Assembly (NCBI GenBank): GCA_951828515.1
Contig: OX639992.1
Coordinates: forward strand, 5,372,217-5,436,216
DNA length: 64,000 nt
Direction of reading: 5' to 3'
Source: an uncultured Poribacteria bacterium
GTDB taxonomy: Bacteria; Poribacteria; WGA-4E; WGA-3G
The position numbers and the translations under genes are program-made. The notes under the pieces were generated by a model. The model worked only from the letters and a program-made list of their open reading frames with translations, had not been told where the DNA came from and did no database searches. Shown here piece by piece: positions 55,701 to 59,802 of this stretch (the first letter of the stretch is position 1; the number at the start of each line of letters is the position of its first letter).

Positions 55701-56315
55701 AAGATTTTCGGCATCTTCAAGTTTCTCCTGTGCCAAAACCCCCTGCGTCAATTTCAACAGCACGACAACATTCACCGGGGAACGGGTGTGGAGTTCCCGC
55801 AAATGTCGAACTGCTTCCAGTTGTGCTTCTGGATCGTTGCGTTGTCCCAGATAATGGCGGACCAGCTTATAACGGAACTCCAACTCATCGGGTGCCAACC
55901 GCACGGCTTCCTTCATCGCCTCCACGGCTAATTCACTCTGTCCTTGTAATTGATAGACCTCAGACAGGATAAAGTGTAACTGGCTGTCCATTGGTGCGAC
56001 AGCGATCCCACGTTTAACCCATTCTTTAGCGGCATCCGCCTGCTGTAGACGTAGATGCGCGACAGCGAGGTTTCCGTAACCGATTGCTTCATCGGGGAGC
56101 AGTTCAATAAGTGCTGTAAACGCCTCGACCGCTTTCGAGGGTTGTGATTCTTCGAGATATGCCAACCCTAAATTCTGATGCCGTATCGCCTCTTCAATAA
56201 TCTGCGGACCGTCCATCTCCTGTGCATTTACTGCCCAAGCCGCGAAGAGCCACGTTAGTAGCAGTACACACATCACTTGTTTTCTCGTATCAGGAGCAGT
56301 GAATCTCAATATCAT
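52785..56315 (-). CDS. Giant exported TPR + FG-GAP/ASPIC-UnbV-type protein
   Basis: ATG 56315 overlaps the stop of the preceding coiled-coil gene (ATGA) and starts a product with a signal peptide (QVMCVLLLTWLFAAWAVNAQ). The 1176-residue protein has TPR-like helices (about 30-240), then FG-GAP-type calcium-loop repeats (DYDNDGNLDLYIA, DFDHDGDLDLFSG, DFDDDGDIDIFTT, DYDNDGDVDLFLA, DYDNDGAVDIWVG, DYDNDGDLDLFFI) forming a propeller, an ASPIC/UnbV segment (GIGSKLEVKVGDLYQLQYVT, SHFGLGAYDAADVVRVVW) and a ~400-residue C-terminal domain. It is extracellular or surface-linked, probably for adhesion or polymer binding. Confidence 0.85.
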   Translation of the reverse strand: MILRFTAPDTRKQVMCVLLLTWLFAAWAVNAQEMDGPQIIEEAIRHQNLGLAYLEESQPSKAVEAFTALIELLPDEAIGYGNLAVAHLRLQQADAAKEWVKRGIAVAPMDSQLHFILSEVYQLQGQSELAVEAMKEAVRLAPDELEFRYKLVRHYLGQRNDPEAQLEAVRHLRELHTRSPVNVVVLLKLTQGVLAQEKLEDAENLCQELMLLLGDTEPEKLKYLTQAITAIQQSDLKIAIRNMRIFENVQRASPRYQQGIGELVTDILGHPIETFSPGFKARVVAKGSTPIDVEFVDVTEQLGLVNVSIPVGISTAISLIDYDNDGNLDLYIASTGQLLRNTGEKFVPVQEFESDLGQHVVAFADLNKDGIQNFLLPPHDAITYLQMEADGSWETSPLIENEQTSDETGILFPVDFDHDGDLDLFSGRANATIYRNNGDDKGNVTFTDVSEQTFVTTDADNMPPVQRAPAAVVSADFDDDGDIDIFTTHKGLGCTLYDNLRQGKLRAVSRETGIPQDAHYFAAAAGDYDNDGDVDLFLATVGYIYLYRNRGDGSFVNAPSSETSVLDSPPALLKNLDYDNDGAVDIWVGGDKGMFLFRNDGTGTFMEPYPLIESVTPMGDPILYSATAGAVGDYDNDGDLDLFFINTDGQLRALQNDGGNQNNWIQVRLEGITAGNNKVNRDGIGSKLEVKVGDLYQLQYVTERISHFGLGAYDAADVVRVVWTNGVPQNVVKPQAKQRILEKQVLKGSCPFLYVYDGEQYQFITDLLWRAPLGLVTSMGFVAPDETKDFVKISGTQIQPKSGKYSIQITEELWETAYFDEVKLIVVDHPAGTDIFVNEQYTPPPFAAFKIYGVAEKRFPESAVDHNGKDVSDALKAFDYRYAVEHAPGAYQGVVEPHAIILDFGDVPKNTPLTLFLGGWIFPTDTSINVALFQNPAINPRFPSVAVKDKTGEWKTVIDMIGLPAGKNKTITVDLTGKFLSEDRRVRIETDMQIYWDTAFFTMDTQSVPMEVTTLNPDSADLHYRGFSEMYRPNPHAPHLFDYQKVTEAAQWRDLAGYYTRYGDVAPLLQEVDDMYVILNAGDEITVEFEASRLPILKAGWVRDFILYSDGWDKDGDINTLTSQTVEPLPFHGMSSYPYPETEHYPNDEVHRQYRREYNTRRIEHLLPPLDTRTEE

Positions 56316-56575
56316 GCGCTTTCCTCTTTCTGAATATCTTCTGCGGTTTGTTGAATTGCCTGTCGTATGCTGTTCCGGCGGAGTGTGAGGGAGTCTTCCA
56401 GCTGCTTGAGGTGCAGCAGCCACGATTCTTTAGAATCACCTTCCTCTGCGCCAAACCCGTTTGTCATAGAGAGTCGAATATATTTTAGCCGTTCTGTCTG
56501 TAGGACCTTCAACTGAGCATCATAGTCCTCAATTCCGGATTCTAACAGAGAGATCAATTCACGAATCTTTTCCAA
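56312..56575 (-). CDS. Small coiled-coil protein upstream of the FG-GAP protein
   Basis: A strong ribosome site AAAAGGAG (56582-56589) precedes TTG 56575, which I take as the start (87 residues; the longer frame from 56620 contains that site). The product is almost entirely helical (KIRELISLLESGIEDYDAQL, then LKQLEDSLTLRRNSIRQAIQ) and acidic at the end. No signal peptide is seen. The ATGA overlap with the FG-GAP gene implies coupling; it may be a cytosolic partner or chaperone. Function unknown. Confidence 0.65.
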   Translation of the reverse strand: MEKIRELISLLESGIEDYDAQLKVLQTERLKYIRLSMTNGFGAEEGDSKESWLLHLKQLEDSLTLRRNSIRQAIQQTAEDIQKEESA

Positions 56576-56709
56576 TGTCCGTCTCCTTTTCGTTGTGTTT
56601 TTGGTAATGTGGCACATCAACGGAAGATACAGAAAGTAGTGTACCTTATTTTATGTTTGCAATCAAATAAAAATGGGTGTGTAAGGGCGCGGTGTTGATA
56701 GTCTGAATC

Positions 56710-56744
56710 GCGGATTCTCGCGGATGATGCGGATTCTCGCGGAT
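56710..56744. repeat. Duplicated 16-bp GCGGATT repeat
   Basis: GCGGATTCTCGCGGAT occurs at 56710-56725 and again at 56729-56744. A shorter relative (CGCGGATTTTCGCG) lies at about 51557. Part of the gene-free stretch 56621-56896. Confidence 0.6.
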
Positions 56745-56896
56745 TTTAAAGAGTATCTCCCCTAAATTCGTGTGCCCTTGCGTCTTAGGAATTGCTCCCA
56801 CGCGGCACAACCTAACAGGTTATGCTACAAGGGGTTTCCCTTCTCTTCATCGCGTCTCAAAAACTTTACATGCTCTCTTTGCGGTTTGGATTTGCC

Positions 56897-56925
56897 TTGA
56901 ATTCCTTCGAGAAACTCCGTATAAT
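56897..56925 (+). promoter_or_regulatory. Sigma-70-type promoter of the ATPase/PIN module
   Basis: TTGAAT (56897-56902), exactly 17 bp, TATAAT (56920-56925), only 21 bases before ATG 56947. This gives a very short leader containing TGGAGG. Confidence 0.8.
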
Positions 56926-56946
56926 AGGGTTACATGGAGGCAGAAA

Positions 56947-58239
56947 ATGATTACACATATCCGGGTAAAAAACTTTAAATCTTGGCAAGATAGCGGTGAG
57001 GTGAAACTTGCACCACTGACTGGTTTCTTCGGAGCAAATAGTTCTGGGAAAAGTAGCCTGTTGCAGATGCTTTTGCTGCTCAAGCAGACTATTGGAAACG
57101 ACGAAGTTATCTTCTTTGGTGATGAAAATTCTCTCATCAATCTTGGTAATTTCCGCGAAGTAATTCATGGACATCAATTAATTAATGAATTGTATTTAGG
57201 AATTAGTTGCGAACTCACCCATTCCGCCTCTGATCTTTTTAAAATTCCCATCCAGTTCCTCCGCTTTGCTTTTGACACCATTATCCGAGAAGAAAAATCA
57301 ACACCAATAGTCAAACACATCCGATATATTAGTTTGCCTGACGGTGCAACAACTCTTTGGGAAAATAGCCGACTCTCCAAGGACAACCAGGACTCAGGCA
57401 CGATTGATATCCAAAACTGTTACGGCTTATCTCGACAACCATCTATAAATTTTACGGGTCCTACAGACAGTCTACCCCAATTTTCGTTTGTGTTTGAAGA
57501 AGTATTTTCTCATGTTTATTACCTTGGTCCTACCCGTGTTCATCCACAACGCTTTTACCATTGGGAAGGGACACATCCAAAGGAAATAGATCTATGGGGC
57601 GATAAAGCAATTGATGCTCTCCTTTCAGCAGGTGTGCGGAAGCTGAAAAGCTCAACTAAAGAAAATGGAGTGTTAATTGAGGAGCGGATTTCCGAATGGC
57701 TTCAAAAGATGGAACTCGCCCACTCCTTTCAACTTATTCCGACCGGCTCTCTGGAGAATAAAAATTACGAGGTACGTATCCAAAAGAGTCTGAACAGTAC
57801 AGAAGTCACATTAGCGGATCTCGGTCACGGAGTTGCAGATTTGTTTCCTCTGTTGGTTCATTGCTACTATGTGCCGGTGGGCTCAACCCTGATCCTGGAA
57901 CAACCCGGCATCCATCTGCATCCGAAAGCACAAGCCGATCTTGCGGACCTACTGATCGAAGTTATTACCGAACGAAACCTCCAGATTTTGATAGAGAGCC
58001 ACAGCGAACATCTACTAAATCGGTTGCAACGGCGTATTGCTGAGGAAAAGATTAGTGTTGATAAAACTGCTCTCTATTTTTGCAGGAACAATGAGGGTGT
58101 TTCTAATATTGACCGGTTAAAAATGGATGAATTCGGCAATATAACGAACTGGCCAGAAAACTTTTTTGGTGACGAGATGAAAGACTTGTTTGCTATGACA
58201 AAGGCACAAAGAGAACGTCAAAAGAAAGCAGAGGGTTAA
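56947..58239 (+). CDS. OLD/AbiEii-style AAA ATPase (DUF3696-like)
   Basis: I start at ATG 56947 (MITHIRVKNFKSWQDSGEV), with TGGAGG six bases upstream and the promoter just before. The 430-residue protein has an ABC/SMC-like ATPase head: Walker A GANSSGKSS (29-37), a signature-type segment ADLGHGVADLFPLL, Walker B ILEQPGIHLHPKAQADLADL and the switch IESHSEHLLNRL. The layout matches DUF3696-type ATPases of defence-linked gene pairs. It overlaps the PIN gene by one base and probably senses or regulates it. No TOPRIM nuclease is fused to it. Confidence 0.88.
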   Translation: MITHIRVKNFKSWQDSGEVKLAPLTGFFGANSSGKSSLLQMLLLLKQTIGNDEVIFFGDENSLINLGNFREVIHGHQLINELYLGISCELTHSASDLFKIPIQFLRFAFDTIIREEKSTPIVKHIRYISLPDGATTLWENSRLSKDNQDSGTIDIQNCYGLSRQPSINFTGPTDSLPQFSFVFEEVFSHVYYLGPTRVHPQRFYHWEGTHPKEIDLWGDKAIDALLSAGVRKLKSSTKENGVLIEERISEWLQKMELAHSFQLIPTGSLENKNYEVRIQKSLNSTEVTLADLGHGVADLFPLLVHCYYVPVGSTLILEQPGIHLHPKAQADLADLLIEVITERNLQILIESHSEHLLNRLQRRIAEEKISVDKTALYFCRNNEGVSNIDRLKMDEFGNITNWPENFFGDEMKDLFAMTKAQRERQKKAEG

Positions 58240-58769
58240 TGGACGCTGTTATCGTGGATACGAACGTTATCGTCATTGCAAATGATACGGATGACGAGAG
58301 GGCTGATTGTAGAGACCTATGCCAAGATCGACTTGAGCAGATTCTCTTTCAAGGTGAAACGGTGGTTATTGACGATAACTGGCGAATTTTGGGAGAGTAT
58401 GAGGATAATGTGAACCCAAACGCTAGAAAAAAAGGAGTTGGCGATATCTTTGTAAAAACGTTGCTGCAGAATCTGAAGAATCCAGAGATTTGCACAATGG
58501 TATCAATCACGCTATCGGCTGGAAATGGAACAGGTTTTGAGGAGTTTCCAGATGACCCAGCACTTAGTAATTTTGATCCAGATGACCGAAAATTTATTGC
58601 CGTAGCCCTCGTGTACGAGAATGTTCATCAGCAGAAGGCAACTCTTTTGCAAGCATCCGATAGCCAGTGGTACGGGTTTCGAGAAGAACTCGTTAGAAAC
58701 GGATTGGAAGTTGAATTTGTCTGTGAAGAGTATATTCGCGATCTGTATGAAAGACGACAAGGAAACTGA
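58239..58769 (+). CDS. PIN-like nuclease partner of the ATPase
   Basis: The 176-residue product begins MDAVIVDTNVIVIANDTDDE with the first PIN acid at Asp7. Other candidate metal ligands are Glu53/Glu55 (LGEYEDNV), Asp113/Asp116 (FDPDDRKF) and Asp141 (LLQASDSQW), in the family order. PIN domains cut RNA or single-stranded DNA with divalent metal. Sharing one base (58239) with the ATPase stop implies coupled translation and a complex. It could be the effector of a defence or toxin-antitoxin-like system. Confidence 0.82.
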   Translation: MDAVIVDTNVIVIANDTDDERADCRDLCQDRLEQILFQGETVVIDDNWRILGEYEDNVNPNARKKGVGDIFVKTLLQNLKNPEICTMVSITLSAGNGTGFEEFPDDPALSNFDPDDRKFIAVALVYENVHQQKATLLQASDSQWYGFREELVRNGLEVEFVCEEYIRDLYERRQGN

Positions 58770-58886
58770 AATCTAATGTGCCTTCTTGATTTTTCCCGCA
58801 ATTTTAAGTCTAAATTAATTCTGGACTATTATATTCTGCGTCGATAACTACAATAAAACCTACTATTACTTAAGCATTGTAGATAA

Positions 58887-58905
58887 GCGAGGTTAGAAAC
58901 CTCGC
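58887..58905. repeat. Intergenic hairpin repeat (REP-like)
   Basis: GCGAGGTT (58887-58894), loop AGA, AACCTCGC (58898-58905). Lies between the PIN gene and the PotB-like permease. Confidence 0.55.
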
Positions 58906-58944
58906 CAGCGGCAGTGCAGGTTTTGCTTCCCATCCCAAAAGAAT

Positions 58945-59802
58945 ATGCGTCGTAATTACCACCTCCTTATCCTTCTTTTCCCCGTTGTTTTTTGGCTCAT
59001 CTGCTTCTTTCTGCTTCCACTCGTATCCGTATTCATTTACAGTTTCATAGAACGTGGAACTTATGGTGGGGTGGTATGGAATTTCACACCGGAAAACTAC
59101 CAACGTCTTTTCGATGGACTCTATCTCGGTATCCTCTGGCGTTCGGTATCGACTGCGTTGGTGTGCACTGCTATCTGTCTACTGCTCGGCTATCCCTTCG
59201 CTTACTATCTGGCGCGCTACAAACCGAAACATAGAAATGTCTTATTGCTACTTGTCGTCGTTCCCTTTTGGACGAACTTCCTCATTCGGACATACGCGTG
59301 GATACTGATATTGCGGACGGAAGGACTCCTGAACAGTCTCTTGGGAGCAGTCATTCCTAATTGGAGTCCGTTAGAACTATTGAACACGCCACTCGCTGTC
59401 CAAATAGGGCTCGTTTATGGCTACCTACCCTTTATGATACTCCCCCTGTATGCCGCTTTGGAGCAATTAGATGTGTCGCTGTTAGAAGCCGCACAAGACT
59501 TAGGCGCGTCGCCGAGGCGCGCGTTCTGGCATGTAACTGTGCCGCTCAGCCTTCCGGGGATTCTTGCTGGCTCAATGCTGGTTTTTATTCCGACGGTAGG
59601 TGCGTTTCTAACACCGGATCTTCTCGGGGGTGGAAAAGTGAGTTATATCGGTAACGTTATCGAGAGACAGTTCAAAACGGCGCGAGATTGGCCTTTCGGT
59701 TCGGCACTCTCATTTATGCTGATGGGCATCGTGCTGGTCGGGACTGTGCTCTATTTCCGCGCTCTACAACAGAATGAGGGGCAACCTGACAGTCCCCCGT
59801 AG
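58945..59802 (+). CDS. PotB-like ABC transporter permease
   Basis: The 285-residue protein has six membrane helices (first LLILLFPVVFWLICFFLLPL) and the ABC-permease EAA loop LLEAAQDLGASPRRAFWHVTVPLSLPG, which contacts the ATPase. Spacing and content fit the PotB subunit of spermidine/putrescine or related polyamine importers. The PotC-like gene follows. No PotA ATPase or PotD binding protein is in this window, so both must be elsewhere or outside. Confidence 0.85.
   Translation: MRRNYHLLILLFPVVFWLICFFLLPLVSVFIYSFIERGTYGGVVWNFTPENYQRLFDGLYLGILWRSVSTALVCTAICLLLGYPFAYYLARYKPKHRNVLLLLVVVPFWTNFLIRTYAWILILRTEGLLNSLLGAVIPNWSPLELLNTPLAVQIGLVYGYLPFMILPLYAALEQLDVSLLEAAQDLGASPRRAFWHVTVPLSLPGILAGSMLVFIPTVGAFLTPDLLGGGKVSYIGNVIERQFKTARDWPFGSALSFMLMGIVLVGTVLYFRALQQNEGQPDSPP

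Follow-up and report, generated by a model that had tools for sequence, protein, structure and literature searches.

What does a compact pair of genes, encoding an ATPase and a small nuclease, do in an uncultured Poribacteria bacterium, and is the combination a new one? The pair lies within a window of 64,000 nucleotides (the whole stretch of DNA that was analysed, G000:C1:5372217-5436216). The first gene (HEC-03B, 56947..58239, + strand) encodes an ATPase of 430 aa, and the second (HEC-03A, 58239..58769, + strand) a PIN-fold nuclease of 176 aa. Both open reading frames are found where an earlier note on this DNA had placed them; they have one base in common, at the junction TAATG, and the sequence places both proteins on one overlapping message. 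The same note had described a near-consensus promoter and unrelated flanking genes, and both descriptions hold: the neighbours are an FG-GAP/TPR gene on one side and a PotB-like permease gene on the other, and the promoter (TTGAAT-17-TATAAT, 56897..56925, + strand, 10/12 in pattern match) ends 21 nt before the ATG of the ATPase gene. A ribosome-binding site (GGAGG, 56936..56940, + strand) follows, as it does upstream of nearly all orthologous genes that stand first in an array. Taken as a lone pattern, TTGAAT-17-TATAAT is not above chance (2 found vs 6.4 expected). A chance promoter is ruled out by conservation across the genus, where an exact TATAAT stands 21-25 nt 5' of the ATG in 20/21 first-in-array ATPase genes, usually with GGAGG after it, and precedes none of the eight internal array copies. 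Because TATAAT is found before the first copies and not before the internal ones, the promoter is, on this comparison, real, and tandem arrays of ATPase-PIN pairs look like single operons.

The identity of the pair can be settled with PADLOC. The window PIN protein matches HEC-03A (E 6.8e-25 over residues 4-164), the sole model that it matches. The ATPase matches HEC-03B (E 1e-103), the next-best models being Menshen NsnB (5e-62) and PDC-M55A, while the AriA model (E 1.6e-26) comes far below HEC-03B and NsnB. HEC-03 is reportedly an Hma-embedded candidate system, put forward in a 2024 preprint by Payne et al. Both homologues are present in the window, adjacent, on the same strand, and overlapping by one base, and because of the two PADLOC matches the pair is, by profile comparison, a HEC-03 unit. 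HEC-03 relatives adjoin HmaA/B/C and RM genes; the window copy has no adjacent RM gene.

The claim that no named system combines this ATPase type with a PIN effector falls, since PADLOC v2 holds HEC-03A and HEC-03B, and pairs of this kind already appear in a 2026 survey, in which OLD-ABC ATPases paired with PIN endoRNases are described from BREX-like loci and given the role of suicidal backup effectors (PMC12839542). Of the candidate undescribed defence or toxin-antitoxin-like module proposed in the earlier note, the two-gene module stands as a candidate for defence, with its recurrent placement by defence genes and its single operon, and neither of the findings that the note named as refuting it has come up, since the pair is conserved outside this genome and the second protein has a predicted PIN fold; the status of undescribed system is ruled out by PADLOC HEC-03. 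The name of the pair and the description of OLD-ABC and PIN dyads as backup effectors are, in short, already known. Literature on DUF3696 and HEC-03 amounts to almost nothing, and neither anti-phage activity nor a mechanism is reported for HEC-03 in searchable papers; in the same papers, we found no description of three features discussed below, namely the mosaic segment that may act as a sensor, the RNA ligase, and the Poribacteria hotspot.

Two other DUF3696 ATPase types occur in the window genome. In the G000:C1:3122301 region (L115:893-1423 and 1420-2721; L173), a DUF3696 ATPase with 28% identity to the window ATPase overlaps the gene of a 176-aa protein. This small protein matches PIN_12 weakly (E 0.024), does not resemble the window PIN in sequence, and is fitted by no PADLOC model. 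This second pair is present in 50/85 genomes of the phylum, and the small protein adjoins the ATPase in all 12 loci checked; it may be the truly unnamed one. A third type (518 aa) is found at L114 (G000:C1:5664781), followed by a 340-aa protein without clear family.

The nuclease assignment relies on fold and active-site residues, because three kinds of sequence search give no support: Pfam and NCBIfam have no match for the window PIN protein, phmmer against PDB sequences returns chance matches only, and a profile built from 72 PIN sequences finds no match among PDB sequences. Structure prediction, proposed earlier as a check on the PIN-like nuclease, returns a PIN fold (single-chain model, pLDDT 95.4). 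The best Foldseek matches are the PIN domains of SMG6, VapC20, and Rrp44. VIA-align places VapC21 at the top (Z 9.7, rmsd 3.1, 124 residues aligned), most of its top rows being VapC or other PIN proteins. VapC toxins are the nearest solved structures. The acidic residues D7, E53, D116, and D141 are invariant in the 72 PIN sequences and in five further ones, D7 being the aspartate already named from the sequence. A PIN fold with an intact acidic tetrad is, thus, supported by the model.

The ATPase had been described as DUF3696/OLD-like, in agreement with its Pfam matches (AAA_15, AAA_21, and DUF3696) and with the ABC/OLD-type head seen in its model (single-chain prediction, pLDDT 90.3). The DUF3696 segment (PF12476, E 5.5e-12) covers residues 369-415 (58051..58191, + strand). 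The model matches SMC/Rad50 heads and the PtuA of retrons and Septu, with Z about 20-22, and structure comparison also places GajA close to it. Walker A (GANSSGKSS, residues 29-37, 57031..57057, + strand) is intact, and its Lys35, the lysine picked out in advance for mutation, is invariant across an alignment of 79 ATPases. Walker B (TLILEQP, residues 314-320, 57886..57906, + strand) contains LEQP; Gln occupies the position of the catalytic Glu in 76/79 ATPases, and because of this replacement ordinary ATP hydrolysis by the HEC-03 ATPase cannot be assumed. In other ABC heads, Gln at this position slows hydrolysis, so ATP binding may serve here more as a clamp or gauge than as a motor.

Between Walker A and the second lobe lies a hypervariable segment, mainly beta-strand in the model (residues ~88-180, 57208..57486, + strand). 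Mean pairwise identity of the ATPases is 0.61 over residues 1-80, 0.17 over 88-180, 0.41 over 181-290, and 0.65 over 291-415. Even among the 187 sequence pairs that are alike at both ATPase ends (>=0.78), 161 have an identity below 0.5 in the segment. At the DNA level, L064/L066 and L070/L072 go from about 85-95% identity to mostly 40-60% in the segment and back up in sharp steps. The operons of L017 and L020 match at both ends and differ in the middle; in L014/L028, the ATPase gene is mostly above 90% identity, and the PIN gene is down to near 50-60% over much of its length. Because DNA identity steps sharply at the mosaic edges, segment replacement or recombination, and not slow drift alone, fits this pattern. 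Residues ~88-180 are, from this pattern, the candidate trigger-sensing part of the ATPase, although hypervariability could instead reflect escape from phage inhibitors. PIN identity that tracks the ATPase C-terminus was considered as a sign of contact between the two proteins and set aside, as physical linkage explains it equally well.

The main reading, to which a probability of about 0.6 is given, is that the window pair constitutes a HEC-03 defence operon, in which the ATPase acts as a sensor that keeps a PIN RNase in check until infection sets it free. Its elements can be weighed separately. The HEC-03 pair quite probably acts in defence. PARIS offers a precedent for the control step: AriA restrains AriB and frees it on binding Ocr, and AriB then cuts tRNA (PMC12409363). 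By analogy with AriA-AriB, the ATPase is proposed to restrain the PIN protein, and a restraint and release of this type has about even odds. In the proposed sequence of events, the PIN protein would be kept inactive by ATP-bound ATPase oligomers, a phage-made trigger would be recognised by the hypervariable segment, which is possibly an anti-restriction protein, and trigger binding would free the PIN protein. The freed enzyme would then cut cellular RNA, translation would stop, and the phage could not multiply. Within this scheme tRNA is the likeliest substrate, which is put forward only tentatively.

Genomic placement bears on what the trigger could be. In the window, the operon occupies a defence hotspot (56621..58944), defined by its occupancy in 36 genomes of the genus and bordered on the left by a 102-aa gene (56312-56620, - strand), next to the FG-GAP/TPR gene, and on the right by the PotB-like permease gene (58945-59802, + strand). 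Depending on the genome, the hotspot contains no pair, one or two HEC-03 pairs, or one to three pairs by type III mod/res genes. The site of the close relative G054 is pair-free and only about 260 bp long, G060 has two pairs, and the window genome and about ten relatives have a single pair with no RM genes beside it. In several genus genomes, the one to three pairs by type III RM genes mostly lie between the methylase (MTase_III 4e-260) and the ResIII gene. One pair of a second Poribacteria clade is embedded in a type I locus that encodes HsdM, HsdS, and HsdR (L061). In other phyla, Hma, BREX/DISARM/Dpd-type helicases, and RM genes are among the neighbours, and plasmid copies adjoin AbiE, Hok/Gef, methylase, and IS genes. 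Placement near defence genes, for which an enrichment test had been suggested, is, thus, recurrent; it is a context and not a measured enrichment, because the comparison has no matched random-neighbourhood control. Other elements recur at the hotspot. A 388-aa gene of unclear family (L052:10705-11871 and relatives), without PADLOC match, turns up there in many genomes of the genus, either by itself or next to HEC-03, and a 246-aa gene (L051:10549-11289 and relatives) weakly matches the single-gene candidate PDC-S03 (2.6e-09). Short CGCGGATTCTCGCGGAT-type repeats are located at window positions 56705-56745, immediately left of the operon, and a related motif is present at the G054 site.

These neighbourhoods could also be taken to mean that the ATPase guards restriction systems: it would not sense the phage itself but would respond to phage inhibition of an adjacent type I or type III restriction enzyme, with the PIN protein as a fallback suicide enzyme. 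The pairs beside or between mod and res genes, the hsdM-hsdS-hsdR setting of L061, and the Hma, BREX, or RM neighbours found elsewhere are all consistent with this, as are the parallel with PARIS sensing Ocr and the proposal of such a role for OLD-ABC modules (PMC12839542). Nevertheless, the window copy and its roughly ten counterparts occupy the hotspot without RM genes beside them, and a single conserved trigger would not need a hypervariable ATPase segment. Guarding of restriction enzymes is, for these reasons, considered rather unlikely.

The nature of the PIN substrate is illuminated by relatives outside Poribacteria. In five plasmid loci, a third gene annotated as RNA ligase starts from a few to about 70 bases from the PIN gene, and the four of these ligases that were scanned match PF09414 (RNA_ligase) at E 1e-30 or better. 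Overall, an RNA ligase adjoins 26/36 non-Poribacterial PIN hits, a count restricted to loci with room to see a ligase and in which a few loci are counted twice, and none of 107 Poribacteria PIN hits; a PF09414 search of the window genome gives no match at all. The adjacent ligases conserve the KxDG motif and further EG and K motifs, and PADLOC has no model for them. Three changes are required to account for the ligase label on the PIN tree, whose ligase-bearing rows come from Planctomycetota, Verrucomicrobiota, and Pseudomonadota. In one plasmid, from Acinetobacter soli, the position of the RNA ligase is occupied by a gene for an HNH endonuclease (L119:10538-11296), and the ATPase at this locus is split between two frames. 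No mention of an RNA ligase beside HEC-03 was found in searchable papers.

PIN proteins can act on DNA or on RNA. The RNA ligase adjoining the PIN gene hints at RNA as the target and at a cut that is open to repair, and action of the HEC-03 PIN protein on RNA is considered likely. The opposite view, in which it cuts invader DNA while the ATPase senses DNA by clamping it, in the manner of Gabija, OLD, or Septu, relies on the closeness of the ATPase fold to Rad50/SMC, PtuA, and GajA. It is improbable, as the solved PIN structures closest to it are for the most part VapC-type RNase toxins and PIN proteins of RNA processing, and as the ligase found in most non-Poribacterial pairs points to RNA. 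Within the preferred reading of a releasable PIN RNase, the ligase of ligase-bearing relatives would probably reseal the cut RNA, so that the response could be reversed or would leak less; such a ligase is absent from the window genome. A broader and doubtful extension is that HEC-03 is at root a cut-and-reseal system, in which the ATPase unleashes the PIN protein on host RNA, a dedicated RNA ligase of the same operon repairs the damage, and the cell pauses instead of dying, the Poribacteria being ligase-free branches with tandem, diversified, and sensor-shuffled copies.

How widely the two genes are kept together was determined by matching PIN and ATPase coordinates over 85 Poribacteria genomes. 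The closest relatives of the window pair are found in Candidatus Poribacteria MAGs, and the PIN protein is present in 56/85 genomes of the phylum. Each of the 88 uninterrupted PIN genes stands immediately behind a HEC-03 ATPase gene, as does each of the seven PIN genes with a stop, and the five hits without ATPase are fragments. Ten ATPases have no PIN gene, which is not counted as an asymmetry because several of them look like another DUF3696 subtype or lie at contig ends. Of the 97 non-redundant pairs collected, 84 overlap by 1 or 4 nt. Uninterrupted copies occur in 51 genomes (one copy in 26, two in 17, three in 4, and four in 4), and some pairs are arranged in tandem, two or three to an array. 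Outside Poribacteria, HEC-03 is found in 6/369 genomes of the class of a Halomonas strain, in 7/297 genomes of the phylum of a Geobacter MAG, and on 12 plasmids, conjugative ones included. Phage records searched for relatives yielded none, a scan of viral contigs with the PIN protein gave five pattern hits with no relative among them, and a search of E. coli genomes with the three-gene DNA of Aeromonas found none. The pair is, thus, kept far beyond the window genome: it is near-obligate, often multi-copy, and patchy outside Poribacteria. One exception to the pairing is a Burkholderiales locus (L110, 9899-11193), with an intact PIN gene and RNA ligase and no ATPase in front, because of which restraint of the PIN protein by the ATPase may not be absolute.

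Strict pairing, with no uninterrupted PIN gene lacking an ATPase in the 85 genomes, and the presence of the pair on conjugative plasmids would also fit a selfish module of the toxin-antitoxin or addiction kind, in which the ATPase serves as antitoxin and phage defence plays no part. Stable use of one chromosomal hotspot common to RM genes, a hypervariable sensor-like segment, and tandem diversified arrays speak against this interpretation, which has little probability. A housekeeping unit for RNA processing or repair is very improbable: PIN and ligase enzymes are known in RNA maturation and an RNA ligase partner exists, but the distribution is patchy (the 6/369 and 7/297 above), copy number varies, and a close relative has a pair-free site.

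A HEC-03 defence operon with a releasable PIN RNase would have several implications. HEC-03 is listed as a candidate, and it now offers testable handles, i.e., the intact PIN active site, the hypervariable ATPase segment, the hotspot, and the RNA ligase. The hypervariable segment may set phage specificity. With the ligase partner, RNA becomes the likely target, and reversibility can be put to the test; a dedicated repair ligase in a phage-defence operon, if true, would bear on how cells stay protected from their own suicidal RNases. Poribacteria are represented here almost entirely by MAGs, and roughly two thirds of their genomes carry the ATPase-PIN unit, with a maximum of four uninterrupted copies per genome.

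Comparison with known systems delineates what the pair shares with each. With VapBC, it shares the VapC fold and acidic residues; however, VapBC has a small DNA-binding antitoxin before the toxin, whereas the gene in front here encodes a 430-aa ATPase. Gabija combines GajA, which has a Toprim domain, with the GajB helicase, while the window ATPase ends after DUF3696 and is followed by the PIN gene and then the permease gene, with no GajB helicase there. The PtuA of Septu and retrons is close in fold to the window ATPase, but PtuB is an HNH nuclease and the window partner is a PIN protein. Menshen NsnB is the second-best PADLOC match of the window ATPase; the other Menshen genes are not adjacent, the partner matches HEC-03A, and the neighbours are the permease and the FG-GAP/TPR gene. 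The OLD-ABC and PIN dyads of BREX/BR systems follow the same pairing idea in an RM-like setting, and the main text of that survey mentions no RNA ligase, DUF3696, or HEC name (PMC12839542). PARIS likewise combines, in one operon, an OLD-type ABC ATPase (AriA) and a small nuclease (AriB), and it is the source of the restraint and release proposed for HEC-03; AriB, however, is a Toprim effector, where the window has a PIN protein (by fold, and matching HEC-03A only), and the window ATPase scores far better on HEC-03B than on AriA. HEC-03 itself is matched by both window genes, as HEC-03A and HEC-03B, and, unlike the Hma-embedded HEC-03, the window copy resides at a Poribacteria hotspot.
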